DNA of 64,000 bases from Crossaster papposus (Eukaryota > Echinodermata > Asteroidea > Velatida > Solasteridae), in NCBI GenBank assembly GCA_037893245.1, contig JBAIAA010000439.1:1-64000 (forward strand), read 5' to 3'. Below the pieces are notes generated by a model, which was given only the letters and a program-made list of their open reading frames with translations, did not search any database and was not told where the DNA came from. Both the position numbers and the translations under genes were made by a program. Below, one piece after another: positions 1 through 22,028 of this stretch. Within the stretch, counting starts at the first letter, position 1, and the number at the start of each line of letters is the position of its first letter.

Positions 1-700
1 GAGTGTTGTTAGTCAATTTCGTAATCTGAAGGTAAAAAGTGCCGAAAAGTGTTTTTTAGGCTCAATGGGCGCTATAGAGCATTTGGGAGTGTTGTTAGTC
101 CATTTCGTGATCTGAAGGTAAATAGTGCCAAAAAGTGTTTGTTAGGCTCAATGGGCGCTATAGAGCATTTGGGAGTGTTGTAAGTCCATTTCGTGATCTG
201 AAGGTAAATAGTGCCAAAAAGTGTTTGTTAGGCTCAATGGGCGCTATAGAGCATTTGGGAGTGTTGTAAGTCCATTTCGTGATCTGAAGGTAAATAGTGC
301 CAAAAAGTGTTTGTTAGGCTCAATGGGCGCTATAGAGCATTTGGGAGGGTTGTTAGTCAATTTCGTGATCTGAAGGTAAAAAGTGTCGAAAAGTGTTTGT
401 TAGGCTCAATAGGCGCTATAGAGCATTTGGGAGTGTTGTTAAGTCAATTTCGTGATCTGAAGGTAAAAAGTGCCGAAAAGTGTTTGTTAGGCTCAATGGG
501 CGCTATAGAGCATTTGGGAGTGTTGTAAGTCAATTTCGTGATCTGAAGGTAAAAAGTGCCGAAAAGTGTTTGTTAGGCTCAATGGGCGCTATAGACCATT
601 TGGGAGTGTTGTAAGTCCATTTCGTGATCTGAAGGTAAAAAGTGCCGAAAAGTGTTTGTTAGGCTCAATGGGCGCTATAGAGCATTTGGGAGTGTTGTAA
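1..700 (+). repeat. Left-edge array segment
   Basis: This stretch starts inside a monomer. It carries a T-like unit with gtaatc, a unit with linker ttgtta, two standard units (the second ending gaggg), then a V-E pair, one agacc unit and J-like units. The same order recurs near 3540-4060, 43430-43950 and 51000-51520, so the window begins inside a truncated copy of the 38-monomer higher-order repeat. Confidence 0.8.
356..442 (+). repeat. 87-bp monomer with linker ttgttaa (class V)
   Basis: This unit ends in ttgttaagtc rather than ttgtaagtc, adding one base. It also carries aaaaagtgtcg and ataggcgc. The next unit (class E, gtcaatttcg with aaaaagtgccg) normally follows a V. 86 is not a multiple of three but 87 is, so the longer linker both removes the in-frame TAA and keeps the reading frame into the next copy. 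That is why the longest open frames in the window sit on V-E pairs. V-E pairs recur throughout, for example at 3892-4067, 29270-29450 and 63750-63905. Confidence 0.85.
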
Positions 701-1906
701 GTCCATTTCGTGATCTGAAGGTAAAAAGTGCCGAAAAGTGTTTGTTAGGCTCAATGGGCGCTATAGAGCATTTAGGAGTGTTGTAAGTCGATTTCGTGAT
801 CTGGGGGTTAAAAGTGCCAAAAAGTGTTTGTTAGGCTCAATAGGCGCTATAGAGCATTTGGGAGTGTTGTTAGTCAATTTCCTGATCTGAAGGTAAAAAG
901 TGCCGAAAAGTGTTTTTTAGGCTCAATGGGCGCTATAGAGCATTTGGGAGTGTTGTAAGTCCATTTCGTGATCTGAAGGTAAATATTGCCAAAAAGTGTT
1001 TGTTAGGCTCAATGGGCGCTATAGAGCATTTGGGAGTGTTGTAAGTCCATTTCGTGATCTGAAGGTAAATAGTGCCAAAAAGTGTTTGTTAGGCTCAATG
1101 GGCGCTATAGAGCATTTGGGAGTGTTGTAAGTCCATTTCGTGATCTGAAGGTAAAAAGTGTCGAAAAGTGTTTGTTAGGCTCAATAGGCGCTATATAGCA
1201 TTTGGGAGTGTTGTTAAGTCAATTTCGTGATCTGAAGGTAAAAAGTGCCGAAAAGTGTTTGTTAGGCTCAATGGGCGCTATAGAGCATTTGGGAGTGTTG
1301 TAAGTCCATTTCGTGATCTGAAGGTAAAAAGTGCCGAAAAGTGTTTGTTAGGCTCAATGGGCGCTATAGAGCATTTAGGAGTGTTGTAAGTCGATTTCGT
1401 GATCTGGGGGTTAAAAGTGCCAAAAAGTGTTTGTTAGGCTCAATAGGCGCTATAGAGCATTTGGGAGTGTTGTTAGTCAATTTCCTGATCTGAAGGTAAA
1501 AAGTGCCGAAAAGTGTTTTTTAGGCTCAATGGGCGCTATAGAGCATTTGGGAGTGTTGTAAGTCCATTTCGTGATCTGAAGGTAAATATTGCCAAAAAGT
1601 GTTTGTTAGGCTCAATGGGCGCTATAGAGCATTTGGGAGTGTTGTAAGTCCATTTCGTGATCTGAAGGTAAATAGTGCCAAAAAGTGTTTGTTAGGCTCA
1701 ATGGGCGCTATAGAGCATTTGGGAGTGTTGTAAGTCCATTTCGTGATCTGAAGGTAAAAAGTGTCGAAAAGTGTTTGTTAGGCTCAATAGGCGCTATATA
1801 GCATTTGGGAGTGTTGTTAAGTCAATTTCGTGATCTGAAGGTAAAAAGTGCCGAAAAGTGTTTGTTAGGCTCAATGGGCGCTATAGACCATTTGGGAGTG
1901 TTGTAA
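701..1906 (+). repeat. Two tandem 603-bp (7-monomer) units
   Basis: Positions 701-1303 and 1304-1906 are direct copies. Shared rare markers are cctgatc (near 881 and 1484), tttaggagtg followed by gggggtt, and ctatatagc (near 1191 and 1794), each pair 603 bp apart. The length equals seven 86-bp units plus one base for the single 87-bp linker. The visible difference is agagc in the last monomer of the first unit against agacc in the second. Confidence 0.9.
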
Positions 1907-2079
1907 GTCCATTTCGTGATCTGAAGGTAAATAGTGCCAAAAAGTGTTTGTTAGGCTCAATGGGCGCTATAGAGCATTTGGGAGTGTTGTAAGTCAATTT
2001 CGTGATCTGAAGGTAAATATTGCCAAAAAGTGTTTGTTAGGCTCAATAGGCGCTATAGAGCATTTGGGAGTGTTGTTAA

Positions 2080-2768
2080 GTCAATTTCGTGATCTAAGGG
2101 TAAAAAGTGCCGAAAAGTGTTTGTTAGGCTCAATGGGCGCTATAGAGCATTTGGGAGTGTTGTAAGTCGATTTCGTGATCTGGGGGTAAAAAGTGCCAAA
2201 AAGTGTTTGTTAGGCTCAATAGGCGCTATAGAGCATTTGGGAGTGTTGTAAGTCCATTTCGTGATCTGAAGGTAAAAAGTGCCGAAAAGTGTTTGTTAGG
2301 CTCAATGGGCGCTATAGAGCATTTGGGAGTGTTGTAAGTCGATTTCGTGATCTGGGGGTAAAAAGTGCCAAAAAGTGTTTGTTAGGCTCAATAGGCGCTA
2401 TAGAGCATTTGGGAGTGTTGTTAAGTCAATTTCGTGATCTAAGGGTAAAAAGTGCCGAAAAGTGTTTGTTAGGCTCAATGGGCGCTATAGAGCATTTGGG
2501 AGTGTTGTAAGTCGATTTCGTGATCTGGGGGTAAAAAGTGCCAAAAAGTGTTTGTTAGGCTCAATAGGCGCTATAGAGCATTTGGGAGTGTTGTAAGTCC
2601 ATTTCGTGATCTGAAGGTAAAAAGTGCCGAAAAGTGTTTGTTAGGCTCAATGGGCGCTATAGAGCATTTGGGAGTGTTGTAAGTCGATTTCGTGATCTGG
2701 GGGTAAAAAGTGCCAAAAAGTGTTTGTTAGGCTCAATAGGCGCTATAGAGCATTTGGGAGTGTTGTTA
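2080..2768 (+). repeat. Tandem duplication of a 4-monomer Q-G-J-G unit
   Basis: The order Q, G, J, G occurs twice: 2080-2424 (345 bp) and 2425-2768 (344 bp). Elsewhere this series occurs once before the F monomer. The last G of the first unit ends in the 87-bp linker ttgttaa that normally precedes Q, while the last G of the second ends in ttgtta before F. The one-base length difference comes from that. Confidence 0.85.
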
Positions 2769-2850
2769 GTTTCGTGATCTGAAGGTAAAAAGTGCCGAAA
2801 AGTGTTTTTTAGGCTCAATGGGCGCTATAGAGCATTTGGGAGTGTTTTTA
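2769..2850 (+). repeat. 82-bp monomer lacking four bases (class F)
   Basis: The start of the unit reads gttagtttcgtg where other copies read gttagtcaatttcgtg, so four bases (caat) are missing. The same units carry tttttt instead of tttgtt. I find 23 copies, with the gtttcg start near 2769, 6040, 9395, 11631, 13779, 15583, 18849, 23061, 26070, 28217, 29592, 30707, 33199, 34917, 38617, 41111, 42660, 46535, 47565, 56347, 58324, 61765 and 62451. The upstream neighbour is usually a G monomer. A deletion this specific most likely arose once, so F monomers mark copies of one ancestral higher-order repeat. Confidence 0.9.
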
Positions 2851-4487
2851 GTCCATTTCGTGATCTGAAGGTAAATAGTGCCAAAAAGTGTTTGTTAGGC
2901 TCAATGGGCGCTGTAGAGCATTTGGGAGTGTTGTAAGTCCATTTCGTGATCTGAAGGTAAATATTGCCAAAAAGTGTTTGTTAGGCTCAATGGGCGCTAT
3001 AGAGCATTTGGGAGTGTTGTAAGTCCATTTCGTGATCTGAAGGTAAATAGTGCCAAAAAGTGTTTGTTAGGCTCAATGGGCGCTATAGAGCATTTGGGAG
3101 TGTTGTTAAGTCAATTTCGTGATCTGAATGTAAAAAGTGCCGAAAAGTGTTTGTTAGGCTCAATGGGCGCTATAGACCATTTGGGAGTGTTGTAAGTCCA
3201 TTTCGTGATCTGAAGGTAAAAAGTGCCGAAAAGTGTTTGTTAGGCTCAATAGGCGCTATAGAGCATTTGGGAGTGTTGTAAGTCCATTTCGTAATCTGAA
3301 GGTAAATAGTGCCAAAAAGTGTTTGTTAGGCTCAATGGGCGCTATAGAGCATTTGGGAGGGTTGTTAGTCAATTTCGTGATCTGAAGGTAAATATTGCCA
3401 AAAAGTGTTTGTTAGGCTCAATAGGCGCTATAGAGCATTTGGGAGTGTTGTAAGTCCATTTCGTGATCTGAAGGTAAAAAATGTCGAAAAGTGTTTGTTA
3501 GGCTCAATAGGCGCTATAGAGCATTTGGGAGTGTTGTTAGTCAATTTCGTAATCTGAAGGTAAAAAGTGCCGAAAAGTGTTTTTTAGGCTCAATGGGCGC
3601 TATAGAGCATTTGGGAGTGTTGTTAGTCCATTTCGTGATCTGAAGGTAAATAGTGCCAAAAAGTGTTTGTTAGGCTCAATGGGCGCTATAGAGCATTTGG
3701 GAGTGTTGTAAGTCCATTTCGTGATCTGAAGGTAAATAGTGCCAAAAAGTGTTTGTTAGGCTCAATGGGCGCTATAGAGCATTTGGGAGTGTTGTAAGTC
3801 CATTTCGTGATCTGAAGGTAAATAGTGCCAAAAAGTGTTTGTTAGGCTCAATGGGCGCTATAGAGCATTTGGGAGGGTTGTTAGTCAATTTCGTGATCTG
3901 AAGGTAAAAAGTGTCGAAAAGTGTTTGTTAGGCTCAATAGGCGCTATAGAGCATTTGGGAGTGTTGTTAAGTCAATTTCGTGATCTGAAGGTAAAAAGTG
4001 CCGAAAAGTGTTTGTTAGGCTCAATGGGCGCTATAGAGCATTTGGGAGTGTTGTAAGTCCATTTCGTGATCTGAAGGTAAAAAGTGTCGAAAAGTGTTTG
4101 TTAGGCTCAATAGGCGCTATAGAGCATTTGGGAGTGTTGTTAAGTCAATTTCGTGATCTGAAGGTAAAAAGTGCCGAAAAGTGTTTGTTAGGCTCAATGG
4201 GCGCTATAGAGCATTTGGGAGTGTTGTAAGTCGATTTCGTGATCTGGGGGTAAAAAGTGCCAAAAAGTGTTTGTTAGGCTCAATAGGCGCTATAGAGCAT
4301 TTGGGAGTGTTGTTAGTCAATTTCGTGATCTGAAGGTAAAAAGTGCCGAAAAGTGTTTTTTAGGCTCAATGGGCGCTATAGAGCATTTGGGAGTGTTGTA
4401 AGTCCATTTCGTGATCTGAAGGTAAATAGTGCCAAAAAGTGTTTGTTAGGCTCAATGGGCGCTATAGAGCATTTGGGAGTGTTGTAA

Positions 4488-4573
4488 GTCCATTTCTTGA
4501 TCTGAAGGTAATTAGTGCCAAAAAGTGTTTGTTAGGCTCAATGGGGGCTATAGAGCATTTGGGAGTGTTGTAA
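4488..4573 (+). repeat. Monomer with ttcttgatc and aattag (class C)
   Basis: Two linked substitutions mark this class: ttcttgatc for ttcgtgatc, which removes a CpG, and gtaattag for gtaaatag. The class is nearly always embedded between S monomers (S, C, S, S). Copies occur in most segments, for example near 12492, 14895, 15239, 17561, 18165, 20827, 25034, 26840, 30362, 31477, 36981, 39561, 45071 and 49285. The copy at 4488 also has atgggggcta instead of atgggcgcta. Confidence 0.85.
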
Positions 4574-6039
4574 GTCCATTTCGTGATCTGAAGGTAAATA
4601 GTGCCAAAAAGTGTTTGTTAGGCTCAATGGGCGCTATAGAGCATTTGGGAGTGTTGTAAGTCCATTTCGTGATCTGAAGGTAAATAGTGCCAAAAAGTGT
4701 TTGTTAGGCTCAATGGGCGCTATAGAGCATTTGGGAGTGTTGTAAGTCCATTTCGTGATCTGAAGGTAAAAAGTGCCGAAAAGTGTTTGTTAGGCTCAAT
4801 GGGCGCTATAGACCATTTGGGAGTGTTGTAAGTCCATTTCGTGATCTGAAGGTAAAAAGTGCCGAAAAGTGTTTGTTAGGCTCAATAGGCGCTATAGAGC
4901 ATTTGGGAGTGTTGTAAGTCCATTTCGTGATCTGAAGGTAAAAAGTGCCGAAAAGTGTTTGTTAGGCTCAATGGGCGCTATAGAGCATTTAGGAGTGTTG
5001 TAAGTCGATTTCGTGATCTGGGGGTTAAAAGTGCCAAAAAGTGTTTGTTAGGCTCAATAGGCGCTATAGAGCATTTGGGAGTGTTGTTAGTCAATTTCGT
5101 GATCTGAAGGTAAAAAGTGCCGAAAAGTGTTTTTTAGGCTCAATGGGCGCTATAGAGCATTTGGGAGTGTTGTAAGTCCATTTCGTGATCTGAAGGTAAA
5201 TATTGCCAAAAAGTGTTTGTTAGGCTCAATGGGCGCTATAGAGCATTTGGGAGTGTTGTAAGTCCATTTCGTGATCTGAAGGTAAATAGTGCCAAAAAGT
5301 GTTTGTTAGGCCCAATGGGCGCTATAGAGCATTTGGGAGTGTTGTAAGTCCATTTCGTGATCTGAAGGTAAAAAGTGTCGAAAAGTGTTTGTTAGGCTCA
5401 ATAGGCGCTATAGAGCATTTGGGAGTGTTGTTAAGTCAATTTCGTGATCTGAAGGTAAAAAGTGCCGAAAAGTGTTTGTTAGGCTCAATGGGCGCTATAG
5501 ACCATTTGGGAGTGTTGTAAGTCCATTTCGTGATCTGAAGGTAAATAGTGCCAAAAAGTGTTTGTTAGGCTCAATGGGCGCTATAGAGCATTTGGGAGTG
5601 TTGTAAGTCAATTTCGTGATCTGAAGGTAAATATTGCCAAAAAGTGTTTGTTAGGCTCAATAGGCGCTATAGAGCATTTGGGAGTGTTGTTAAGTCAATT
5701 TCGTGATCTGAAGGGTAAAAAGTGCCGAAAAGTGTTTGTTAGGCTCAATGGGCGCTATAGAGCATTTGGGAGTGTTGTTAAGTCGATTTCGTGATCTGGG
5801 GGTAAAAAGTGCCAAAAAGTGTTTGTTAGGCTCAATAGGCGCTATAGAGCATTTGGGAGTGTTGTAAGTCCATTTCGTGATCTGAAGGTAAAAAGTGCCG
5901 AAAAGTGTTTGTTAGGCTCAATGGGCGCTATAGAGCATTTGGGAGTGTTGTAAGTCGATTTCGTGATCTGGGGGTAAAAAGTGCCAAAAAGTGTTTGTTA
6001 GGCTCAATAGGCGCTATAGAGCATTTGGGAGTGTTGTTA

Positions 6040-9000
6040 GTTTCGTGATCTGAAGGTAAAAAGTGCCGAAAAGTGTTTTTTAGGATCAATGGGCGCTATA
6101 GAGCATTTGGGGAGTGTTGTTAGTCCATTCGTGATCTGAAGGTAAATAGTGCCAAAAAGTGTTTGTTAGGCTCAATGGGCGCTTAGAGCATTTGGGAGTG
6201 TTGTAAGTCCATTTCGTGATCTGAAGGTAAATATTGCCAAAAAGTGTTTGTTAGGCTCAATGGGCGCTATAGAGCATTTGGGAGTGTTGTAAGTCCATTT
6301 CGTGATCTGAAGGTAAATAGTGCCAAAAAGTGTTTGTTAGGCTCAATGGGCGCTATAGAGCATTTGGGAGTGTTGTTAAGTCAATTTCGTGATCTGAAGG
6401 TAAAAAGTGCCGAAAAGTGTTTGTTAGGCTCAATGGGCGCTATAGACCATTTGGGAGTGTTGTAAGTCCATTTCGTGATCTGAAGGTAAAAAGTGCCGAA
6501 AAGTGTTTGTTAGGCTCAATAGGCGCTATAGAGCATTTGGGAGTGTTGTAAGTCCATTTCGTAATCTGAAGGTAAATAGTGCCAAAAAGTGTTTGTTAGG
6601 CTCAATGGGCGCTATAGAGCATTTGGGAGGGTTGTTAGTCAATTTCGTGATCTGAAGGTAAATATTGCCAAAAAGTGTTTGTTAGGCTCAATAGGCGCTA
6701 TAGAGCATTTGGGAGTGTTGTTAAGTCCATTTCGTGATCTGAAGGTAAAAAGTGCCGAAAAGTGTTTTTTAGGCTCAATGGGCGCTATAGAGCATTTGGG
6801 AGTGTTGTTAGTCCATTTCGTGATCTGAAGGTAAATAGTGCCAAAAAGTGTTTGTTAGGCTCAATGGGCGCTATAGAGCATTTGGGAGTGTTGTAAGTCC
6901 ATTTCGTGATCTTAAGGTAAATAGTGCCAAAAAGTGTTTGTTAGGCTCAATAGGCGCTATAGAGCATTTGGGAGTGTTGTTAAGTCAATTTCGTGATCTG
7001 AAGGTAAAAAGTGCCGAAAAGTGTTTGTTAGGCTCAATGGGCGCTATAGAGCATTTGGGAGGGTTGTTAGTCAATTTCGTGATCTGAAGGTAAATATTGC
7101 CAAAAAGTGTTTGTTAGGCTCAATGGGCGCTATAGAGCATTTGGGAGTGTTGTAAGTCCATTTCGTGATCTGAAGGTAAATAGTGCCAAAAAGTGTTTGT
7201 TAGGCTCAATGGGCGCTATAGAGCATTTGGGAGTGTTGTTAGTCCATTTCGTGATCTGAAGGTAAATAGTGCCGAAAAGTGTTTGTTAGGCTCAATGGGC
7301 GCTATAGAGCATTTGGGAGTGTTGTTAAGTCCATTTCGTGATCTGAAGGTAAATATTGCCAAAAAGTGTTTGTTAGGCTCAATGGGCGCTATAGAGCATT
7401 TGGGAGTGTTGTAAGTCCATTTCGTGATCTGAAGGTAAATAGTGCCAAAAAGTGTTTGTTAGGCTCAATGGGCGCTATAGAGCATTTGGGAGTGTTGTAA
7501 GTCCATTTCTTGATCTGAAGGTAATTAGTGCCAAAAAGTGTTTGTTAGGCTCAATGGGCGCTATAGAGCATTTGGGAGTGTTGTAAGTCCATTTCGTGAT
7601 CTGAAGGTAAATAGTGCCAAAAAGTGTTTGTTAGGCTCAATGGGCGCTATAGAGCATTTGGGAGTGTTGTAAGTCGATTTCGTGATCTGGGGGTAAAAAG
7701 TGCCAAAAAGTGTTTGTTAGGCTCAATAGGCGCTATAGAGCATTTGGGAGTGTTGTTAGTCCATTTCGTGATCTGAAGGTAAAAAGTGCGACAAAGTGTT
7801 TTTTAGGCTCAATGGGCGCTATAGAGCATTTGGGAGTGTTGTTAGTCCATTTCGTGATCTGAAGGTAAATATTGCCAAAAAGTGTTTGTTAGGCTCAATG
7901 GGCGCTATAGAGCATTTGGGAGTGTTGTAAGTCCATTTCGTGATCTGAAGGTAAATAGTGCCAAAAAGTGTTTGTTAGGCTCAATGGGCGCTATAGAGCA
8001 TTTGGGAGTGTTGTAAGTCCATTTCGTGATCTGAAGGTAAATAGTGCCAAAAAGTGTTTGTTAGGCTCAATGGGCGCTATAGAGCATTTGGGAGTGTTGT
8101 AAGTCCATTTCGTGATCTGAAGGTAAAAAGTGCCGAAAAGTGTTTGTTAGGCTCAATGGGCGCTATAGACCATTTGGGAGTGTTGTAAGTCCATTTCGTG
8201 ATCTGAAGGTAAAAAGTGCCGAAAAGTGTTTGTTAGGCTCAATAGGCGCTATAGAGCATTTGGGAGTGTTGTAAGTCCATTTCGTGATCTGAAGGTAAAA
8301 AGTGCCGAAAAGTGTTTGTTAGGCTCAATGGGCGCTATAGAGCATTTAGGAGTGTTGTAAGTCGATTTCGTGATCTGGGGGTTAAAAGTGCCAAAAAGTG
8401 TTTGTTAGGCTCAATAGGCGCTATAGAGCATTTGGGAGTGTTGTTAGTCAATTTCGTGATCTGAAGGTAAAAAGTGCCGAAAAGTGTTTTTTAGGCTCAA
8501 TGGGCGCTATAGAGCATTTGGGAGTGTTGTAAGTCCATTTCGTGATCTGAAGGTAAATATTGCCAAAAAGTGTTTGTTAGGCTCAATGGGCGCTATAGAG
8601 CATTTGGGAGTGTTGTAAGTCCATTTCGTGATCTGAAGGTAAATAGTGCCAAAAAGTGTTTGTTAGGCTCAATGGGCGCTATAGAGCATTTGGGAGTGTT
8701 GTAAGTCCATTTCGTGATCTGAAGGTAAAAAGTGTCGAAAAGTGTTTGTTGGGCTCAATAGGCGCTATAGAGCATTTGGGAGTGTTGTTAAGTCAATTTC
8801 GTGATCTGAAGGTAAAAAGTGCCGAAAAGTGTTTGTTAGGCTCAATGGGCGCTATAGACCATTTGGGAGTGTTGTAAGTCCATTTCGTGATCTGAAGGTA
8901 AATAGTGCCAAAAAGTGTTTGTTAGGCTCAATGGGCGCTATAGAGCATTTGGGAGTGTTGTAAGTCAATTTCGTGATCTGAAGGTAAATATTGCCAAAAA

Positions 9001-9394
9001 GTGTTTGTTAGGCTCAATAGGCGCTATAGAGCATTTGGGAGTGTTGTTAAGTCAATTTCGTGATCTAAGGGTAAAAAGTGCCGAAAAGTGTTTGTTAGGC
9101 TCAATGGGCGCTACAGAGCATTTGGGAGTGTTGTAAGTCGATTTCGTGATCTGGGGGTAAAAAGTGCCAAAAAGTGTTTGTTAGGCTCAATAGGCGCTAT
9201 AGAGCATTTGGGAGTGTTGTAAGTCCATTTCGTGATCTGAAGGTAAAAAGTGCCGAAAAGTGTTTGTTAGGCTCAATGGGCGCTATAGAGCATTTGGGAG
9301 TGTTGTAAGTCGATTTCGTGATCTGGGGGTAAAAAGTGCCAAAAAGTGTTTGTTAGGCTCAATAGGCGCTATAGAGCATTTGGGAGTGTTGTTA
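6040..9394 (+). repeat. Second higher-order repeat copy, rearranged middle (3355 bp)
   Basis: The first third (to about 6720) and last third (from about 8100) follow the reference order, and rare states such as ctgtagagc-like and gaggg copies line up. The middle, about 6720-8090, is replaced by another mixture: a ttaagtcc/tttttt hybrid, linker-ttgtta units, an S with gatcttaagg near 6910, a second gaggg copy near 7062, S, C and G. Total length fits 39 monomers with six 87-bp linkers, one 82-bp F and a net loss of one base. The copy near 7794 reads gcgacaaag, a private change. Confidence 0.78.
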
Positions 9395-11630
9395 GTTTCG
9401 TGATCTGAAGGTAAAAAGTGCCGAAAAGTGTTTTTTAGGCTCAATGGGCGCTATAGAGCATTTGGGAGTGTTGTTAGTCCATTTCGTGATCTGAAGGTAA
9501 ATAGTGCCAAAAAGTGTTTGTTAGGCTCAATGGGCGCTGTAGAGCATTTGGGAGTGTTGTAAGTCCATTTCGTGATCTGAAGGTAAATATTGCCAAAAAG
9601 TGTTTGTTAGGCTCAATGGGCGCTATAGAGCATTTGGGAGTGTTGTAAGTCCATTTCGTAATCTGAAGGTAAATAGTGCCAAAAAGTGTTTGTTAGGCTC
9701 AATGGGCGCTATAGAGCATTTAGGAGTGTTGTTAAGTCAATTTGGTGATCTGAAGGTAAAAAGTGCCGAAAAGTGTTTGTTAGGCTCAATGGGCGCTATA
9801 GACCATTTGGGAGTGTTGTAAGTCCATTTCGTGATCTGAAGGTAAAAAGTGCCGAAAAGTGTTTGTTAGGCTCAATAGGCGCTATAGAGCATTTGGGAGT
9901 GTTGTAAGTCCATTTCGTAATCTGAAGGTAAATAGTGCCAAAAAGTGTTTGTTAGGCTCAATGGGCGCTATAGAGCATTTGGGAGGGTTGTTAGTCAATT
10001 TCGTGATCTGAAGGTAAATATTGCCAAAAAGTGTTTGTTAGGCTCAATAGGCGCTATAGAGCATTTGGGAGTGTTGTAAGTCCATTTCGTGATCTGAAGG
10101 TAAAAAATGTCGAAAAGTGTTTGTTAGGCTCAATAGGCGCTATAGAGCATTTGGGAGTGTTGTTAGTCAATTTCGTAATCTGAAGGTAAAAAGTGCCGAA
10201 AAGTGTTTTTTAGGCTCAATGGGCGCTATAGAGCATTTGGGAGTGTTGTTAGCCCATTTCGTGATCTCAAGGTAAATAGTGCCAAAAAGTGCTTGTTAGG
10301 CTCAATGGGCGCTATAGAGCATTTGGGAGTGTTGTAAGTCCATTTCGTGATCTGAAGGTAAATAGTGCCAAAAAGTGTTTGTTAGGCTCAATGGGCGCTA
10401 TAGAGCATTTGGGAGTGTTGTAAGTCCATTTCGTGATCTGAAGGTAAATAGTGCCAAAAAGTGTTTGTTAGGCTCAATGGGCGCTATAGAGCATTTGGGA
10501 GTGTTGTAAGTCCATTTCGTGATCTGAAGGTAAAAAGTGCCGAAAAGTGTTTGTTAGGCTCAATGGGCGCTATAGACCATTTGGGAGTGTTGTAAGTCCA
10601 TTTCGTGATCTGAAGGTAAAAAGTGCCGAAAAGTGTTTGTTAGGCTCAATAGGCGCTATAGAGCATTTGGGAGTGTTGTAAGTCCATTTCGTGATCTGAA
10701 GGTAAAAAGTGCCGAAAAGTGTTTGTCAGGCTCAATGGGCGCTATAGAGCATTTAGGAGTGTTGTAAAGTCGATTTCGTGATCTGGGGGTTAAAAGTGCC
10801 AAAAAGTGTTTGTTAGGCTCAATAGGCGCTATAGAGCATTTGGGAGTGTTGTTAGTCAATTTCGTGATCTGAAGGTAAAAAGTGCCGAAAAGTGTTTTTT
10901 AGGCTCAATGGGCGCTATAGAGCATTTGGGAGTGTTGTAAGTCCATTTCGTGATCTGAAGGTAAATATTGCCAAAAAGTGTTTGTTAGGCTCAATGGGCG
11001 CTATAGAGCATTTGGGAGTGTTGTAAGTCCATTTCGTGATCTGAAGGTAAATAGTGCCAAAAAGTGTTTGTTAGGCTCAATGGGCGCTATAGAGCATTTG
11101 GGAGTGTTGTAAGTCCATTTCGTGATCTGAAGGTAAAAAGTGTCGAAAAGTGTTTGTTAGGCTCAATAGGCGCTATAGAGCATTTGGGAGTGTTGTTAAG
11201 TCAATTTCGTGATCTGAAGGTAAAAAGTGCCGAAAAGTGTTTGTTAGGCTCAATGGGCGCTATAGACCATTTGGGAGTGTTGTAAGTCCATTTCGTGATC
11301 TGAAGGTAAATAGTGCCAAAAAGTGTTTGTTAGGCTCAATGGGCGCTATAGAGCATTTGGGAGTGTTGTAAGTCAATTTCGTGATCTGAAGGTAAATATT
11401 GCCAAAAAGTGTTTGTTAGGCTCAATAGGCGCTATAGAGCATTTGGGAGTGTTGTTAAGTCAATTTCGTGATCTAAGGGTAAAAAGTGCCGAAAAGTGTT
11501 TGTTAGGCTCAATGGGCGCTATAGAGCATTTGGGAGTGTTGTAAGTCGATTTCGTGATCTGGGGGTAAAAAGTGCCAAAAAGTGTTTGTTAGGCTCAATA
11601 GGCGCTATAGAGCATTTGGGAGTGTTGTTA
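9395..11630 (+). repeat. Third higher-order repeat copy, shortened (2236 bp)
   Basis: It follows the reference order from F through X and the gtaatc T copy, then passes through a copy with gatctcaagg and gtgcttg (near 10268 and 10291) and three S units into D, and joins the late part. The V-E-V-E-G-T-S-C block is missing. From about 10331 to 11626 it matches 37059-38354 at an offset of 26,728 bp, including the rare linker ttgtaaagtcg near 10764. Private changes include gtcagg near 10725 and agcccatttc near 10252. Confidence 0.78.
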
Positions 11631-13778
11631 GTTTCGTGATCTGAAGGTAAAAAGTGCCGAAAAGTGTTTTTTAGGCTCAATGGGCGCTATAGAGCATTTG
11701 GGAGTGTTGTAAGTCCATTTCGTGATCTGAAGGTAAATAGTGCCAAAAAGTGTTTGTTAGGCTCAATGGGCGCTATAGAGCATTTGGGAGTGTTGTTAAG
11801 TCAATTTCGTGATCTGAAGGTAAAAAGTGCCGAAAAGTGTTTGTTAGGCTCAATGGGCGCTATAGACCATTTGGGAGTGTTGTAAGTCCATTTCGTGATC
11901 TGAAGGTAAAAAGTGCCGAAAAGTGTTTGTTAGGCTCAATAGGCGCTATAGAGCATTTGGGAGTGTTGTAAGTCCATTTCGTAATCTGAAGGTAAATAGT
12001 GCCAAAAAGTGTTTGTTAGGCTCAATGGGCGCTATAGAGCATTTGGGAGGGTTGTTAGTCAATTTCGTGATCTGAAGGTAAATATTGCCAAAAAGTGTTT
12101 GTTAGGCTCAATAGGCGCTATAGAGCATTTGGGAGTGTTGTAAGTCCATTTCGTGATCTGAAGGTAAAAAATGTCGAAAAGTGTTTTTTAGGCTCAATGG
12201 GCGCTATAGAGCATTTGGGAGTGTTGTAAGTCGATTTCGTGATCTGGGGGTAAAAAGTGCCAAAAAGTGTTTGTTAGGCTCAATAGGCGCTATAGAGCAT
12301 TTGGGAGTGTTGTTAGTCAATTTCGTGATCTGAAGGTAAAAAGTGCCGAAAAGTGTTTTTTAGGCTCAATGGGCGCTATAGAGCATTTGGGAGTGTTGTA
12401 AGTCCATTTCGTGATCTGAAGGTAAATAGTGCCAAAAAGTGTTTGTTAGGCTCAATGGGCGCTATAGAGCATTTGGGAGTGTTGTAAGTCCATTTCTTGA
12501 TCTGAAGGTAATTAGTGCCAAAAAGTGTTTGTTAGGCTCAATGGGCGCTATAGAGCATTTGGGAGTGTTGTAAGTCCATTTCGTGATCTGAAGGTAAATA
12601 GTGCCAAAAAGTGTTTGTTAGGCTCAAAGGGCGCTATAGAGCATTTGGGAGTGTTGTAAGTCCATTTCGTGATCTGAAGGTAAATAGTGCCAAAAAGTGT
12701 TTGTTAGGCTCAATGGGCGCTATAGAGCATTTGGGAGTGTTGTAAGTCCATTTCGTGATCTGAAGGTAAAAAGTGCCGAAAAGTGTTTGTTAGGCTCAAT
12801 GGGCGCTATAGACCATTTGGGAGTGTTGTAAGTCCATTTCGTGATCTGAAGGTAAAAAGTGCCGAAAAGTGTTTGTTAGGCTCAATAGGCGCTATAGAGC
12901 ATTTGGGAGTGTTGTAAGTCCATTTCGTGATCTGAAGGTAAAAAGTGCCGAAAAGTGTTTGTTAGGCTCAATGGGCGCTATAGAGCATTTAGGAGTGTTG
13001 TAAGTCGATTTCGTGATCTGGGGGTTAAAAGTGCCAAAAAGTGTTTGTTAGGCTCAATAGGCGCTATAGAGCATTTGGGAGTGTTGTTAGTCAATTTCGT
13101 GATCTGAAGGTAAAAAGTGCCGAAAAGTGTTTTTTAGGCTCAATGGGCGCTATAGAGCATTTGGGAGTGTTGTAAGTCCATTTCGTGATCTGAAGGTAAA
13201 TATTGCCAAAAAGTGTTTGTTAGGCTCAATGGGCGCTATAGAGCATTTGGGAGTGTTGTAAGTCCATTTCGTGATCTGAAGGTAAATAGTGCCAAAAAGT
13301 GTTTGTTAGGCCCAATGGGCGCTATAGAGCATTTGGGAGTGTTGTAAGTCCATTTCGTGATCTGAAGGTAAAAAGTGTCGAAAAGTGTTTGTTAGGCTCA
13401 ATAGGCGCTATAGAGCATTTGGGAGTGTTGTTAAGTCAATTTCGTGATCTGAAGGTAAAAAGTGCCGAAAAGTGTTTGTTAGGCTCAATGGGCGCTATAG
13501 AGCATTTGGGAGTGTTGTAAGTCGATTTCGTGATCTGGGGGTAAAAAGTGCCAAAAAGTGTTTGTTAGGCTCAATAGGCGCTATAGAGCATTTGGGAGTG
13601 TTGTAAGTCCATTTCGTGATCTGAAGGTAAAAAGTGCCGAAAAGTGTTTGTTAGGCTCAATGGGCGCTATAGAGCATTTGGGAGTGTTGTAAGTCGATTT
13701 CGTGATCTGGGGGTAAAAAGTGCCAAAAAGTGTTTGTTAGGCTCAATAGGCGCTATAGAGCATTTGGGAGTGTTGTTA
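11631..13778 (+). repeat. Fourth higher-order repeat copy, shortened (2148 bp)
   Basis: F is followed by a copy joined directly to S and an agacc copy, so the ctgtagagc and B units are lost. At 12144-12229 a hybrid monomer joins the X class to a tttttt class and leads straight into G, skipping the V-E-V-E stretch. The remainder (G, T, S, C, S, S, D and on to G-J-G) is in reference order, with cccaatggg near 13311 shared with 5310. In the last V-E pair the agacc copy is agagc and leads directly into G. Confidence 0.75.
12144..12229 (+). repeat. Hybrid monomer joining X and tttttt classes
   Basis: The left part has the X-class aaaaaatgtcg and the right part the tttttt and atggg of the following T-type copy. 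In other regions X is a separate unit with tttgtt and atagg (for example near 3480, 10107, 43373 and 56967). The hybrid leads directly to G, so several further reference monomers are also absent. Confidence 0.8.
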
Positions 13779-14722
13779 GTTTCGTGATCTGAAGGTAAAA
13801 AGTGCCGAAAAGTGTTTTTTAGGCTCAATGGGCGCTATAGAGCATTTGGGAGTGTTGTTAGTCCATTTCGTGATCTGAAGGTAAATAGTGCCAAAAAGTG
13901 TTTGTTAGGCTCAATGGGCGCTGTAGAGCATTTGGGAGTGTTGTAAGTCCATTTCGTGATCTGAAGGTAAATATTGCCAAAAAGTGTTTGTTAGGCTCAA
14001 TGGGCGCTATAGAGCATTTGGGAGTGTTGTAAGTCCATTTCGTGATCTGAAGGTAAATAGTGCCAAAAAGTGTTTGTTAGGCTCAATGGGCGCTATAGAG
14101 CATTTGGGAGTGTTGTTAAGTCAATTTCGTGATCTGAAGGTAAAAAGTGCCGAAAAGTGTTTGTTAGGCTCAATAGGCGCTATAGAGCATTTGGGAGTGT
14201 TGTAAGTCCATTTCGTAATCTGAAGGTAAATAGTGCCAAAAAGTGTTTGTTAGGCTCAATGGGCGCTATAGAGCATTTGGGAGGGTTGTTAGTCAATTTC
14301 GTGATCTGAAGGTAAATATTGCCAAAAAGTGTTTGTTAGGCTCAATAGGCGCTATAGAGCATTTGGGAGTGTTGTAAGTCCATTTCGTGATCTGAAGGTA
14401 AAAAGTGCCGAAAAGTGTTTTTTAGGCTCAATGGGCGCTATAGAGCATTTGGGAGTGTTGTTAGTCCATTTCGTGATCTGAAGGTAAATAGTGCCAAAAA
14501 GTGTTTGTTAGGCTCAATGGGCGCTATAGAGCATTTGGGAGTGTTGTAAGTCCATTTCGTGATCTGAAGGTAAATAGTGCCAAAAAGTGTTTGTTAGGCT
14601 CAATAGGCGCTATAGAGCATTTGGGAGTGTTGTTAAGTCAATTTCGTGATCTGAAGGTAAAAAGTGCCGAAAAGTGTTTGTTAGGCTCAATGGGCGCTAT
14701 AGAGCATTTGGGAGTGTTGTAA
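13779..14722 (+). repeat. Array segment leading into the tripled block
   Basis: The segment starts F, ctgtagagc copy, B, S, then an atagg copy after an 87-bp linker, the gaggg copy, gtcaat/aatat copy, a tttttt copy, the linker-ttgtta copy, S with atagg, and E. From F on, this order closely resembles the inside of the 3266-bp blocks (15583 onward), so it is probably the remnant of an earlier block copy that lacks the agacc unit. Confidence 0.7.
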
Positions 14723-14808
14723 GTCGATTTCGTGATCTGGGGGTAAAAAGTGCCAAAAAGTGTTTGTTAGGCTCAATAGGCGCTATAGAGCATTTGGGAG
14801 TGTTGTAA
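14723..14808 (+). repeat. G-run monomer (class G)
   Basis: This copy begins gtcgatttcg and has ctgggggt where the standard has ctgaaggt, followed by aaaaagtgcc and ataggcgc. The first change creates a TCGA (TaqI) site, and the second gives a run of five G. G monomers often flank one J monomer (order G, J, G) just upstream of the 82-bp F monomer. A related form with gggggtt (class Gt) follows a unit with tttagg, for example near 5004 and 13007. Confidence 0.88.
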
Positions 14809-17800
14809 GTCCATTTCGTGATCTGAAGGTAAATAGTGCCAAAAAGTGTTTGTTAGGCTCAATGGGCGCTATAGAGCATTTGGGAGTGTTGTAAGTCCAT
14901 TTCTTGATCTGAAGGTAATTAGTGCCAAAAAGTGTTTGTTAGGCTCAATGGGCGCTATAGAGCATTTGGGAGTGTTGTAAGTCCATTTCGTGATCTGAAG
15001 GTAAATAGTGCCAAAAAGTGTTTGTTAGGCTCAATGGGCGCTATAGAGCATTTGGGAGTGTTGTAAGTCCATTTCGTGATCTGAAGGTAAATAGTGCCAA
15101 AAAGTGTTTGTTAGGCTCAATGGGCGCTATAGAGCATTTGGGAGTGTTGTAAGTCCATTTCGTGATCTGAAGGTAAATAGTGCCAAAAAGTGTTTGTTAG
15201 GCTCAATGGGCGCTATAGAGCATTTGGGAGTGTTGTAAGTCCATTTCTTGATCTGAAGGTAATTAGTGCCAAAAAGTGTTTGTTAGGCTCAATGGGCGCT
15301 ATAGAGCATTTGGGAGTGTTGTAAGTCGATTTCGTGATCTGGGGGTAAAAAGTGCCAAAAAGTGTTTGTTAGGCTCAATAGGCGCTATAGAGCATTTGGG
15401 AGTGTTGTAAGTCCATTTCGTGATCTGAAGGTAAAAAGTGCCGAAAAGTGTTTGTTAGGCTCAATGGGCGCTATAGAGCATTTGGGAGTGTTGTAAGTCG
15501 ATTTCGTGATCTGGGGGTAAAAAGTGCCAAAAAGTGTTTGTTAGGCTCAATAGGCGCTATAGAGCATTTGGGAGTGTTGTTAGTTTCGTGATCTGAAGGT
15601 AAAAAGTGCCGAAAAGTGTTTTTTAGGCTCAATGGGCGCTATAGAGCATTTGGGAGTGTTGTTAGTCCATTTCGTGATCTGAAGGTAAATAGTGCCAACA
15701 AGTGTTTGTTAGGCTCAATGGGCGCTGTAGAGCATTTGGGATTGTTGTAAGTCCATTTCGTGATCTGAAGGTAAATATTGCCAAAAAGTGTTTGTTAGGC
15801 TCAATGGGCGCTATAGAGCATTTGGGAGTGTTGTAAGTCCATTTCGTGATCTGAAGGTAAATAGTGCCAAAAAGTGTTTGTTAGGCTCAATGGGCGCTAT
15901 AGAGCATTTGGGAGTGTTGTTAAGTCAATTTCGTGATCTGAAGGTAAAAAGTGCCGAAAAGTGTTTGTTAGGCTCAATGGGCGCTATAGACCATTTGGGA
16001 GTGTTGTAAGTCCATTTCGTGATCTGAAGGTAAAAAGTGCCGAAAAGTGTTTGTTAGGCTCAATAGGCGCTATAGAGCATTTGGGAGTGTTGTAAGTCCA
16101 TTTCGTAATCTGAAGGTAAATAGTGCCAAAAAGTGTTTGTTAGGCTCAATGGGCGCTATAGAGCATTTGGGAGGGTTGTTAGTCAATTTCGTGATCTGAA
16201 GGTAAATATTGCCAAAAAGTGTTTGTTAGGCTCAATAGGCGCTATAGAGCATTTGGGAGTGTTGTAAGTCCATTTCGTGATCTGAAGGTAAAAAGTGCCG
16301 AAAAGTGTTTTTTAGGCTCAATGGGCGCTATAGAGCATTTGGGAGTGTTGTTAGTCCATTTCGTGATCTGAAGGTAAATAGTGCCAAAAAGTGTTTGTTA
16401 GGCTCAATGGGCGCTATAGAGCATTTGGGAGTGTTGTAAGTCCATTTCGTGATCTGAAGGTAAATAGTGCCAAAAAGTGTTTGTTAGGCTCAATAGGCGC
16501 TATAGAGCATTTGGGAGTGTTGTTAAGTCAATTTCGTGATCTGAAGGTAAAAAGTGCCGAAAAGTGTTTGTTAGGCTCAATGGGCGCTATAGAGCATTTG
16601 GGAGTGTTGTAAGTCGATTTCGTGATCTGGGGGTAAAAAGTGCCAAAAAGTGTTTGTTAGGCTCAATAGGCGCTATAGAGCATTTGGGAGTGTTGTTAGT
16701 CAATTTCGTGATCTGAAGGTAAAAAGTGCCGAAAAGTGTTTTTTAGGCTCAATGGGCGCTATAGAGCATTTGGGAGTGTTGTTAGTCCATTTCGTGATCT
16801 GAAGGTAAATAGTGCCGAAAAGTGTTTGTTAGGCTCAATGGGCGCTATAGAGCATTTGGGAGTGTTGTAAGTCCATTTCGTGATCTGAAGGTAAAAAGTG
16901 CCGAAAGGTGTTTGTTAGGCTCAATAGGCGCTATAGAGCATTTGGGAGTGTTGTAAGTCCATTTCGTGATCTGAAGGTAAATAGTGCCAAAAAGTGTTTG
17001 TTAGGCTCAATGGGCGCTATAGAGCATTTGGGAGGGTTGTTAGTCAATTTCGTGATCTGAAGGTAAATATTGCCAAAAAGTGTTTGTTAGGCTCAATAGG
17101 CGCTATAGAGCATTTGGGAGTGTTGTAAGTCCATTTCGTGATCTGAAGGTAAATAGTGCCAAAAAGTGTTTGTTAGGCTCAATGGGCGCTATAGAGCATT
17201 TGGGAGTGTTGTAAGTCCATTTCGTGATCTGAAGGTAAATAGTGCCAAAAAGTGTTTGTTAGGCTCAATGGGCGCTATAGAGCATTTGGGAGTGTTGTTA
17301 GTCCATTTCGTGATCTGAAGGTAAATAGTGCCGAAAAGTGTTTGTTAGGCTCAATGGGCGCTATAGAGCATTTGGGAGTGTTGTAAGTCCATTTCGTGAT
17401 CTGAAGGTAAATATTGCCAAAAAGTGTTTGTTAGGCTCAATGGGCGCTATAGAGCATTTGGGAGTGTTGTAAGTCCATTTCGTGATCTGAAGGTAAATAG
17501 TGCCAAAAAGTGTTTGTTAGGCTCAATGGGCGCTATAGAGCATTTGGGAGTGTTGTAAGTCCATTTCTTGATCTGAAGGTAATTAGTGCCAAAAAGTGTT
17601 TGTTAGGCTCAATGGGCGCTATAGAGCATTTGGGAGTGTTGTAAGTCCATTTCGTGATCTGAAGGTAAATAGTGCCAAAAAGTGTTTGTTAGGCTCAATG
17701 GGCGCTATAGAGCATTTGGGAGTGTTGTAAGTCCATTTCGTGATCTGAAGGTAAATAGTGCCAAAAAGTGTTTGTTAGGCTCAATGGGCGCTATAGAGCA

Positions 17801-17988
17801 TTTGGGAGTGTTGTAAGTCCATTTCGTGATCTGAAGGTAAAAAGTGCCGAAAAGTGTTTGTTAGGCTCAATGGGCGCTATAGACCATTTGGGAGTGTTGT
17901 AAGTCCATTTCGTGATCTGAAGGTAAAAAGTGCCGAAAAGTGTTTGTTAGGCTCAATAGGCGCTATAGAGCATTTGGGAGTGTTGTAA
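14723..17988 (+). repeat. 3266-bp higher-order block, copy 1
   Basis: Thirty-eight monomers, in the order G, S, C, S, S, S, C, G, J, G, F, ctgtagagc copy, B, S, agacc copy, atagg copy, gaggg copy, gtcaat/aatat copy, tttttt copy, linker-ttgtta copy, S with atagg, E, G, T, Lg, gaaaggtg copy, gaggg copy, gtcaat/aatat copy, S, S, Lg, B, S, C, S, S, D, atagg copy. A block-specific marker, ttgggattgttg near 15737, recurs at +3266 and +7478. One private change is caacaag near 15697. Thirty-eight 86-bp units minus four plus two give exactly 3266. Confidence 0.88.
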
Positions 17989-18246
17989 GTCGATTTCGTG
18001 ATCTGGGGGTAAAAAGTGCCAAAAAGTGTTTGTTAGGCTCAATAGGCGCTATAGAGCATTTGGGAGTGTTGTAAGTCCATTTCGTGATCTGAAGGTAAAT
18101 AGTGCCAAAAAGTGTTTGTTAGGCTCAATGGGCGCTATAGAGCATTTGGGAGTGTTGTAAGTCCATTTCTTGATCTGAAGGTAATTAGTGCCAAAAAGTG
18201 TTTGTTAGGCTCAATGGGCGCTATAGAGCATTTGGGAGTGTTGTAA

Positions 18247-18332
18247 GTCCATTTCGTGATCTGAAGGTAAATAGTGCCAAAAAGTGTTTGTTAGGCTCAA
18301 TGGGCGCTATAGAGCATTTGGGAGTGTTGTAA
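18247..18332 (+). repeat. Representative standard monomer (class S), 86 bp
   Basis: This unit carries the commonest state at every variable position: linker ttgtaa, gtcc, ctgaagg, aatagtgcc, aaaaagtg, tttgttagg, caatggg, agagc, tttggg and gagtg. I phase monomers from gtc. It holds one GATC at monomer positions 12-15, one HaeII site (ggcgct) around positions 57-62, and an imperfect 12-bp palindrome at 58-69. A and T tracts lie at positions 6-8, 33-37, 41-43 and 71-73. Class S is the most abundant class and often occurs two or three times in a row, for example just downstream of this copy. Confidence 0.9.
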
Positions 18333-20136
18333 GTCCATTTCGTGATCTGAAGGTAAATAGTGCCAAAAAGTGTTTGTTAGGCTCAATGGGCGCTATAGAG
18401 CATTTGGGAGTGTTGTAAGTCCATTTCGTGATCTGAAGGTAAATAGTGCCAAAAAGTGTTTGTTAGGCTCAATGGGCGCTATAGAGCATTTGGGAGTGTT
18501 GTAAGTCCATTTCTTGATCTGAAGGTAATTAGTGCCAAAAAGTGTTTGTTAGGCTCAATGGGCGCTATAGAGCATTTGGGAGTGTTGTAAGTCGATTTCG
18601 TGATCTGGGGGTAAAAAGTGCCAAAAAGTGTTTGTTAGGCTCAATAGGCGCTATAGAGCATTTGGGAGTGTTGTAAGTCCATTTCGTGATCTGAAGGTAA
18701 AAAGTGCCGAAAAGTGTTTGTTAGGCTCAATGGGCGCTATAGAGCATTTGGGAGTGTTGTAAGTCGATTTCGTGATCTGGGGGTAAAAAGTGCCAAAAAG
18801 TGTTTGTTAGGCTCAATAGGCGCTATAGAGCATTTGGGAGTGTTGTTAGTTTCGTGATCTGAAGGTAAAAAGTGCCGAAAAGTGTTTTTTAGGCTCAATG
18901 GGCGCTATAGAGCATTTGGGAGTGTTGTTAGTCCATTTCGTGATCTGAAGGTAAATAGTGCCAAAAAGTGTTTGTTAGGCTCAATGGGCGCTGTAGAGCA
19001 TTTGGGATTGTTGTAAGTCCATTTCGTGATCTGAAGGTAAATATTGCCAAAAAGTGTTTGTTAGGCTCAATGGGCGCTATAGAGCATTTGGGAGTGTTGT
19101 AAGTCCATTTCGTGATCTGAAGGTAAATAGTGCCAAAAAGTGTTTGTTAGGCTCAATGGGCGCTATAGAGCATTTGGGAGTGTTGTTAAGTCAATTTCGT
19201 GATCTGAAGGTAAAAAGTGCCGAAAAGTGTTTGTTAGGCTCAATGGGCGCTATAGACCATTTGGGAGTGTTGTAAGTCCATTTCGTGATCTGAAGGTAAA
19301 AAGTGCCGAAAAGTGTTTGTTAGGCTCAATAGGCGCTATAGAGCATTTGGGAGTGTTGTAAGTCCATTTCGTAATCTGAAGGTAAATAGTGCCAAAAAGT
19401 GTTTGTTAGGCTCAATGGGCGCTATAGAGCATTTGGGAGGGTTGTTAGTCAATTTCGTGATCTGAAGGTAAATATTGCCAAAAAGTGTTTGTTAGGCTCA
19501 ATAGGCGCTATAGAGCATTTGGGAGTGTTGTAAGTCCATTTCGTGATCTGAAGGTAAAAAGTGCCGAAAAGTGTTTTTTAGGCTCAATGGGCGCTATAGA
19601 GCATTTGGGAGTGTTGTTAGTCCATTTCGTGATCTGAAGGTAAATAGTGCCGAAAAGTGTTTGTTAGGCTCAATGGGCGCTATAGAGCATTTGGGAGTGT
19701 TGTAAGTCCATTTCGTGATCTGAAGGTAAATAGTGCCAAAAATTGTTTGTTAGGCTCAATAGGCGCTATAGAGCATTTGGGAGTGTTGTTAAGTCAATTT
19801 CGTGATCTGAAGGTAAAAAGTGCCGAAAAGTGTTTGTTAGGCTCAATGGGCGCTATAGAGCATTTGGGAGTGTTGTAAGTCGATTTCGTGATCTGGGGGT
19901 AAAAAGTGCCAAAAAGTGTTTGTTAGGCTCAATAGGCGCTATAGAGCATTTGGGAGTGTTGTTAGTCAATTTCGTGATCTGAAGGTAAAAAGTGCCGAAA
20001 AGTGTTTTTTAGGCTCAATGGGCGCTATAGAGCATTTGGGAGTGTTGTTAGTCCATTTCGTGATCTGAAGGTAAATAGTGCCGAAAAGTGTTTGTTAGGC
20101 TCAATGGGCGCTATAGAGCATTTGGGAGTGTTGTAA

Positions 20137-22028
20137 GTCCATTTCGTGATCTGAAGGTAAAAAGTGCCGAAAGGTGTTTGTTAGGCTCAATAGGCGCTAT
20201 AGAGCATTTGGGAGTGTTGTAAGTCCATTTCGTGATCTGAAGGTAAATAGTGCCAAAAAGTGTTTGTTAGGCTCAATGGGCGCTATAGAGCATTTGGGAG
20301 GGTTGTTAGTCAATTTCGTGATCTGAAGGTAAATATTGCCAAAAAGTGTTTGTTAGGCTCAATAGGCGCTATAGAGCATTTGGGAGTGTTGTAAGTCCAT
20401 TTCGTGATCTGAAGGTAAATAGTGCCAAAAAGTGTTTGTTAGGCTCAATGGGCGCTATAGAGCATTTGGGAGTGTTGTAAGTCCATTTCGTGATCTGAAG
20501 GTAAATAGTGCCAAAAAGTGTTTGTTAGGCTCAATGGGCGCTATAGAGCATTTGGGAGTGTTGTTAGTCCATTTCGTGATCTGAAGGTAAATAGTGCCGA
20601 AAAGTGTTTGTTAGGCTCAATGGGCGCTATAGAGCATTTGGGAGTGTTGTAAGTCCATTTCGTGATCTGAAGGTAAATATTGCCAAAAAGTGTTTGTTAG
20701 GCTCAATGGGCGCTATAGAGCATTTGGGAGTGTTGTAAGTCCATTTCGTGATCTGAAGGTAAATAGTGCCAAAAAGTGTTTGTTAGGCTCAATGGGCGCT
20801 ATAGAGCATTTGGGAGTGTTGTAAGTCCATTTCTTGATCTGAAGGTAATTAGTGCCAAAAAGTGTTTGTTAGGCTCAATGGGCGCTATAGAGCATTTGGG
20901 AGTGTTGTAAGTCCATTTCGTGATCTGAAGGTAAATAGTGCCAAAAAGTGTTTGTTAGGCTCAATGGGCGCTATAGAGCATTTGGGAGTGTTGTAAGTCC
21001 ATTTCGTGATCTGAAGGTAAATAGTGCCAAAAAGTGTTTGTTAGGCTCAATGGGCGCTATAGAGCATTTGGGAGTGTTGTAAGTCCATTTCGTGATCTGA
21101 AGGTAAAAAGTGCCGAAAGGTGTTTGTTAGGCTCAATAGGCGCTATAGAGCATTTGGGAGTGTTGTAAGTCCATTTCGTGATCTGAAGGTAAATAGTGCC
21201 AAAAAGTGTTTGTTAGGCTCAATGGGCGCTATAGAGCATTTGGGAGGGTTGTTAGTCAATTTCGTGATCTGAAGGTAAATATTGCCAAAAAGTGTTTGTT
21301 AGGCTCAATAGGCGCTATAGAGCATTTGGGAGTGTTGTAAGTCCATTTCGTGATCTGAAGGTAAATAGTGCCAAAAAGTGTTTGTTAGGCTCAATGGGCG
21401 CTATAGAGCATTTGGGAGTGTTGTAAGTCCATTTCGTGATCTGAAGGTAAATAGTGCCAAAAAGTGTTTGTTAGGCTCAATGGGCGCTATAGAGCATTTG
21501 GGAGTGTTGTTAGTCCATTTCGTGATCTGAAGGTAAATAGTGCCGAAAAGTGTTTGTTAGGCTCAATGGGCGCTATAGAGCATTTGGGAGTGTTGTAAGT
21601 CCATTTCGTGATCTGAAGGTAAATATTGCCAAAAAGTGTTTGTTAGGCTCAATGGGCGCTATAGAGCATTTGGGAGTGTTGTAAGTCCATTTCGTGATCT
21701 GAAGGTAAATAGTGCCAAAAAGTGTTTGTTAGGCTCAATGGGCGCTATAGAGCATTTGGGAGTGTTGTAAGTCCATTTCTTGATCTGAAGGTAATTAGTG
21801 CCAAAAAGTGTTTGTTAGGCTCAATGGGCGCTATAGAGCATTTGGGAGTGTTGTAAGTCCATTTCGTGATCTGAAGGTAAATAGTGCCAAAAAGTGTTTG
21901 TTAGGCTCAATGGGCGCTATAGAGCATTTGGGAGTGTTGTAAGTCCATTTCGTGATCTGAAGGTAAATAGTGCCAAAAAGTGTTTGTTAGGCTCAATGGG
22001 CGCTATAGAGCATTTGGGAGTGTTGTAA
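20137..22028 (+). repeat. Nested 946-bp (11-monomer) tandem duplication
   Basis: Two 946-bp units, 20137-21082 and 21083-22028, each start with the rare gaaaggtg copy (gtccatttcg then gtgccgaaaggtg). They run through the gaggg copy, a gtcaat/aatat copy, S, S, Lg, B, S, C, S, S. Eleven 86-bp units give exactly 946. Block copies 1 and 3 hold this stretch only once (from 16871 and from about 24349), so the duplication happened in or after the formation of copy 2. Confidence 0.88.

Follow-up and report, generated by a model that had tools for sequence, protein, structure and literature searches.

Does the 86-bp satellite that makes up one contig of the echinoderm Crossaster papposus contain a long higher-order repeat, and if it does, is that repeat a period of the present array or the trace of an earlier one? 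A preliminary description had proposed that the monomers follow one fixed order of 38 units (about 3.27 kb) that recurs in partial or edited copies, a length thought exceptional and an arrangement of the kind seen in homogenised arrays. The DNA considered here (the window, 64,000 bp) is the first 64 kb of contig JBAIAA010000439.1 (C439; 89,868 bp) in assembly GCA_037893245.1, which comprises 1,023,315,904 bases in 1841 contigs. Another contig of the assembly, C1841 (16,330 bp), carries a COX1 that has an open reading under code table 9, the code of echinoderm and flatworm mitochondria, with AAA standing for Asn where Asn is expected (FSTNHKDIG and GGFGNWL, for example), and the protein resembles echinoderm rather than flatworm COX1; on this evidence by itself an echinoderm is the most likely source.

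The 86-bp array and its monomer order

The satellite fills the whole window head to tail (1..64000, forward strand) and runs on to the end of the contig: Tandem Repeats Finder reports one row for the window (744.2 copies, 94% matches) and a single row for the entire contig. Cutting by wrap-around alignment to the consensus gave 744 full monomers in the window and 1045 over C439, with a mean identity between monomers of about 95%. There are 105 distinct haplotypes among the 744, of which 54 were seen once, and the monomers do fall into recurring classes as first described: 28 over C439, defined as haplotypes occurring five times or more among the 1045 monomers, with rarer haplotypes assigned to the nearest class if within two differences and otherwise left unclassed. 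Monomer length is 86, 87 or 82 bp in 1038 of 1044 monomers of C439, that is, the 86-bp phase is kept. Members of class J, which share a 4-bp deletion (82 bp; 83 bp in the copy at 6029), serve as a marker; monomer cutting places the first at 2758..2839 (forward strand), and there are 23 in the window and 32 in C439.

The window has a strong and even strand bias (GC skew 0.40–0.42 in every 4-kb step, with C making up 12% of bases), which stems from the G- and T-rich monomer. Its 81 open reading frames of at least 60 amino acids (67–108 aa, mostly 73 aa) recur with the repeat, whose 86-bp unit is not divisible by three; the satellite is non-coding and no protein is claimed. No Rfam family matched the window at the gathering score. 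An origin from a phage, plasmid, viral contig or prokaryote was rejected, with no match in blastn (943 bases) or exact-pattern searches and the window sitting in a 1.02-Gb assembly, as was a 172-bp dimer (match rate at lag 2 of 0.084 over C439, inside the permuted-order range).

Recurring strings of 8, 12, 20 and 30 classes cover 92, 82, 63 and 23% of C439, respectively. With monomer order permuted the corresponding coverage is 0% at all four lengths, whilst a first-order Markov chain gives 38, 4, 0 and 0% and a second-order chain 88, 55, 8.5 and 0.3%. If each 3- or 4-monomer context is extended by its most frequent successor, the path closes at exactly 38 over C439, and its order is that of a single marker-to-marker interval at 2758..6028 (forward strand; 38 monomers, 3271 bp, between the class J markers at 2758 and 6029), the very unit singled out in the preliminary description. 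The interval reads JOCAGDNHVSQAAWEFEBIAKAAPDUXICAFGAMRBLB, with E for R at one place, and in the 3-monomer path class Z replaces B at one place. Support is thin at some steps (5/16 or 2/5, for example), and with a 2-monomer context the modal cycle over C439 is 12. Among the 31 marker-to-marker intervals this is the sole one with the modal order. From 2413 the cyclic order is followed for 38 monomers without a break, a near-complete second copy (35 of 38 monomers consecutively) lies at 47554..50563 and a collinear piece of 28 monomers at 33528..35935 (both forward strand; ends estimated as 35 and 28 × 86 bp).

When 38-monomer stretches of the array were tried as cyclic templates (those free of unclassed monomers), the best proved to be a rotation of the 2758..6028 order. 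Its collinear pieces of at least four monomers, 87 in number, tile 785 of the 1045 monomers of C439, and 55 of them tile 549 of the 744 in the window, bearing out the claim that partial and edited copies recur. By comparison, 200 shuffled 38-orders tiled at most 64 monomers of the real array, and no more than 21 were tiled in any of 50 permuted arrays. Because the modal path closes at 38, the order is the best template and the tiling lies far above that of the shuffles, we take the 38-monomer order to be real.

Identity is 0.997 between monomers that share a place in the order and 0.947 between those that do not (916 of 1045 monomers assigned), a comparison that is partly circular in that the classes define the places. 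A less circular test examines the monomers that follow members of the same class (19 chosen classes): these are identical in 49% of pairs versus 6% of random pairs, with a following-monomer identity of 0.984 versus 0.947. The proposed excess of within-unit over monomer-to-monomer identity is seen in both comparisons, and the presence of an ordered multi-monomer pattern is supported.

A monomer order without a fixed period

The 31 spacings between the markers of C439 range from 8 to 102 monomers. Two of them (2 of 22 in the window) equal 38, and their contents differ: the second, at 15572..18837 (forward strand), reads JOCAGDNHLQAEBITaAHAATCAKAAPDBAKAAAKBLB. Decoding C439 with the 38-cycle takes 110 jumps and 129 mismatches in 1045 monomers, with a median run of 6, and a single run (50 monomers) reaches 38 or more with mismatches allowed. 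When the 2758..6028 unit is compared with the 38 monomers that follow it, 6 of 38 places are identical; over the first 140 monomers lag 39 comes third (0.20), a near-repeat of this unit offset by one.

Over C439 the exact-match rate at lag 38 is 0.086, where the maxima of permuted orders average 0.081 and reach 0.093 (n = 200), and it is exceeded by lags 49 (0.128) and 58 (0.105), both above the permuted-maxima range. Within the window by itself lag 38 reaches 0.113; it ranks third of 119 and exceeds every one of 500 permuted maxima, of which the largest is 0.107. The predicted excess of self-identity at about 3.27 kb is therefore found in the window, but it comes from one place: 51 of the 80 lag-38 matches have their start in the 12–24 kb stretch, and leaving out 13.7–25.5 kb lowers lag 38 to 0.051, rank 79 of 119. 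This stretch (13700..25500, forward strand) is a local tandem block with marker intervals of 21, 38, 49 and 35 monomers and an exact 2834-bp repeat at a lag of 4212 bp. It repeats a different 38-unit string beside a 49-unit string, and accounts for the lag-38 excess and for roughly half the matches at lag 49. Of 13 local 140-monomer stretches of C439, two have lag 38 in their top five, and both overlap the block.

Order memory (next-monomer identity, 19 classes) falls from 49% at one monomer to 14% at 8, 8% at 16–20 and 7% at 38, against a baseline of 6%. It thus spans about 12–16 monomers, is near baseline by about 16–30 and does not rebound at 38. The 38-monomer order is real but is not a fixed period.

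Nor is 38 the only length to emerge. Taken alone, the window gives a modal cycle of 46 with 3-monomer context and 38 with 4-monomer context; C439 minus the 2758..6028 interval gives 38 and 45, and finer classes (38 instead of 28) give 37 and 38, respectively. A 46-cycle with the extra stretch ITaAHAATC decodes C439 with a score of 253 versus 89 for the 38-cycle and tiles 859 monomers versus 785, having eight more places to fit. Of the original proposal, then, the 38-unit order persists as the modal order and best template of C439 but not as a fixed unit, and a homogenised 38-mer array is not supported, given the short memory, the lack of a rebound at 38 and a 46-cycle that fits about as well.

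Possible origins of the order

To ask how such an array might arise, we ran simulations in which blocks of monomers were duplicated in tandem or deleted (the single kind of event used, with neither mutation nor inter-array exchange), starting from a random order (640 runs), a perfect 38-cycle (800 runs) and a perfect 46-cycle (800 runs). A memory of at least 0.55 and a modal cycle of at least 30 were reached jointly in 565 of 800 runs from 38-mer starts, 491 of 800 from 46-mer starts and 0 of 640 from random starts, 57 of the last reaching the memory threshold alone and 15 the cycle threshold alone. The modal cycle was exactly 38 in 552 38-cycle runs, three 46-cycle runs and two random-start runs. 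Nearness to the data was scored on eleven measures of order memory, string coverage and the height of the top lag; the 100 closest runs comprised 66 with 46-mer, 33 with 38-mer and one with random start, and most had 100–250 events with a mean size of 15–25 monomers. A founder length of 38 is not cleanly separable from one of about 46, and we make no choice between them because the eleven measures favour 46 and the cycle length favours 38.

The array is, we think, probably a long higher-order repeat, once regular (38 or 46 monomers), that has since been scrambled by block duplications and deletions, roughly 100–150 of them in the simulations that fit best. Some 38 distinct 86-bp monomers, or perhaps 46 if an optional 8-monomer stretch is counted, would have formed a long block that was amplified as a unit. 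Many out-of-register exchanges would then have duplicated or deleted blocks of whole monomers, until what remained was a patchwork of collinear pieces that lacks a fixed period. The once-regular stage is inferred, as are how many events there were, how large they were and the agent of exchange, which may have been unequal crossing over or a replication-based process. Exact duplications of up to 2834 bp are found in C439 at many lags, including 11, 12, 13, 15, 24, 30, 38, 49, 58 and 87 monomers; at 46524..48583 (forward strand, end estimated), for example, a 12-monomer tandem duplication carries JOCAGDNHVSQA twice (an exact 1081-bp repeat at a lag of 1030 bp). Breaks in the order adjoin identical monomers in 24% of cases versus 11% by chance, a modest excess (66 of the 110 breaks usable, with both sides matched). 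The long duplications, the kept 86-bp phase and the identical monomers at breaks fit homologous unequal exchange. Lag 38 was the top lag in 11 of 320 38-cycle runs with 100–150 events, so the fixed-lag test suggested in the preliminary description cannot refute an eroded order of this sort.

It is unlikely, in our estimation, that no regular repeat ever existed and that the modal order emerged from a random monomer string duplicated and deleted locally. Random starts with mean blocks of 25–40 monomers do match the observed coverage by repeated strings, and one such run is among the nearest 100, but not one of the 640 combines the observed memory with a long modal cycle and only two close at exactly 38. 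In the unequal-crossover model of Smith, random exchange is said both to create and to erode periodic order; the array resembles that model (which is not a family) in the making and eroding of such order, but differs from it in the length of its modal cycle, which only a few random-start runs equal or exceed. The model is named, as one of satellite evolution, in the part of PMC8122249 drawn on here.

Very unlikely is a true homogenised 38-monomer higher-order repeat with few edited copies. The closure of the modal order at 38, the one full and one 35/38 copy, the window rate at lag 38 and the raised lag 39 in the first 140 monomers all speak for it, but the list of marker intervals, with its two 38-monomer members of different content, largely refutes it, and the 110 breaks, the median run of 6 and a lag-38 excess that comes from one other block (with lag 38 in the top five of two of the 13 local stretches of C439) also count against it. 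Least credible is that the scrambling is partly an assembly artefact, produced where long identical stretches of the repeat were misjoined or collapsed: C439 is satellite throughout and thus has no unique anchoring sequence, and the indel-rich first 20 kb of contig C1256 show that assembly quality is uneven, but C439 itself looks clean, with its 54 once-seen haplotypes, its irregular intervals occur all along the contig, and an array on contig C426 likewise has short-range order without one fixed lag.

Other arrays and known systems

A 28-base core of the monomer has 29,367 exact matches in the assembly (13,563 and 15,804 per strand), and its reversed control has none; scaling by the rate in C439 (873 cores per 1045 monomers) suggests about 35,000 monomers genome-wide, or roughly 3 Mb. 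On C426 the 86-bp satellite occupies the first 113 kb and is followed by a 64-bp satellite (to 130 kb, and also at 200–202 kb) and, at 350 and 530 kb in the sampled stretches of the contig that were read, by a third satellite. A heterochromatic setting is likely because this array of the same satellite adjoins other satellites.

The orders differ between the arrays read. No string of 8 C439 classes is common to the C426 array and C439 (530 and 107 fully classed strings tested), the 30-base pattern of class J, with 32 occurrences in C439, is absent from the first 130 kb of C426, and order memory at one monomer is 0.15–0.27 in C426 versus 0.42 in C439 in the same analysis. Two 10-kb stretches of a further contig (C2) belong to the same satellite family with other variants, one of them with a local top lag of 35.

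Two elements interrupt the C426 array, one with a reverse transcriptase and the other with terminal inverted repeats. The first, at about 57.8–63.5 kb, is a LINE-like insert with a 563-aa frame that matches the reverse transcriptase family PF00078 (E 1.4e-38). The second, at about 83.8–88.0 kb, is a DNA element with inverted ends (TAGTACAGCAGATAA...TTATCTGCTGTACTA), apparently flanked by repeated TTA, and two of its open frames (183 and 563 aa) have no Pfam match at E 0.001. At 113.02–113.80 kb the junction between the 86-bp and 64-bp satellites is duplicated (392 bp, 2.0 copies, 100% matches), so the boundary took part in a tandem duplication. The third satellite has a unit of roughly 210–220 bp with inverted ends (CCTAGGAATGGCAAAATTAACAATTTGA and its complement), as if it consisted of head-to-tail copies of a small inverted-repeat transposon.

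Two observations concern the assembly itself. In C1256 the satellite at 1–20000 has 1.87 indels per monomer versus 0.26 in C439, and the final 2 kb (43001–45020) are clean by eye; polishing is likely to have been uneven. The 5.3-Mb contig C8 has bacterial-looking COX1-family matches without internal stops and may be the genome of a symbiont or contaminant inside the assembly.

Scored against the CENP-B-box motif, 924 of the 1045 monomers have a best match of 6/9 and 121 one of 7/9, which is within the range given by 300 shuffled consensus sequences (5–8). Centromere function is not inferable from monomer order alone. A tentative possibility is that this is a centromere-type echinoderm satellite whose separate arrays have their own long higher-order repeats (here with a founder of at least 38), C439 being a more recently homogenised, transposon-free core and arrays like that of C426 an older, transposon-hit edge.

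As a higher-order repeat in the strict sense the array has its classes head to tail and likeness at the same place, but it lacks a fixed tandem unit length. It has the features of an irregular or eroded higher-order repeat, namely a common order in copies whose length varies by loss and gain of whole monomers. It is not alpha satellite, having an 86-bp rather than an approximately 171-bp monomer and CENP-B-box matches at shuffle level. The closest likeness we can draw is to the irregular higher-order repeats of orangutan chromosome 13, which, in the sections of PMC11276891 consulted, also have an alignable monomer order and copies of varying length. Described there are a 59-mer, intermixed 18-, 27- and 45-mers, a 7-mer array in which deletions and insertions increase towards either side, and an array of 21 monomer types that is called 'highly riddled' and in which no copy is canonical. 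The orangutan 59-mer has a mean divergence of 22.4% (same source, same sections), in contrast to the 86-bp monomer of about 95% identity and the other phylum here, and no sequence relation is claimed. With that 59-mer and 45-mer, and a 34-mer on the human Y (PMC8122249, as excerpted), a length of 38 has precedents and is less exceptional than the preliminary description supposed. Orders also differ between arrays of alpha satellite, according to the same excerpts of PMC8122249. Among invertebrates, satellites of the Drosophila ananassae subgroup similarly form long arrays with higher-order structure and few transposon interruptions, but their monomers are 99–411 bp and they lie in pericentromeric domains (PMC11917152, portions used here).

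No example of echinoderm satellitomes or higher-order repeats was found in the open-licence literature among the matches listed. The finding is of a known kind of array in a host new to it, with a founder order that is long, and we read it as routine satellite turnover at work on a long higher-order repeat that has eroded, comparable to parts of orangutan chromosome 13. For method, the simulations indicate that fixed-lag self-identity can miss eroded arrays of long order. If the tentative core-and-edge arrangement held, the layout of alpha satellite would have been reached independently in echinoderms. If the long founder is real, an echinoderm would join the animals with long-unit higher-order satellites, and the array would show by example that a long founder order can still be recovered once the period itself has been lost.
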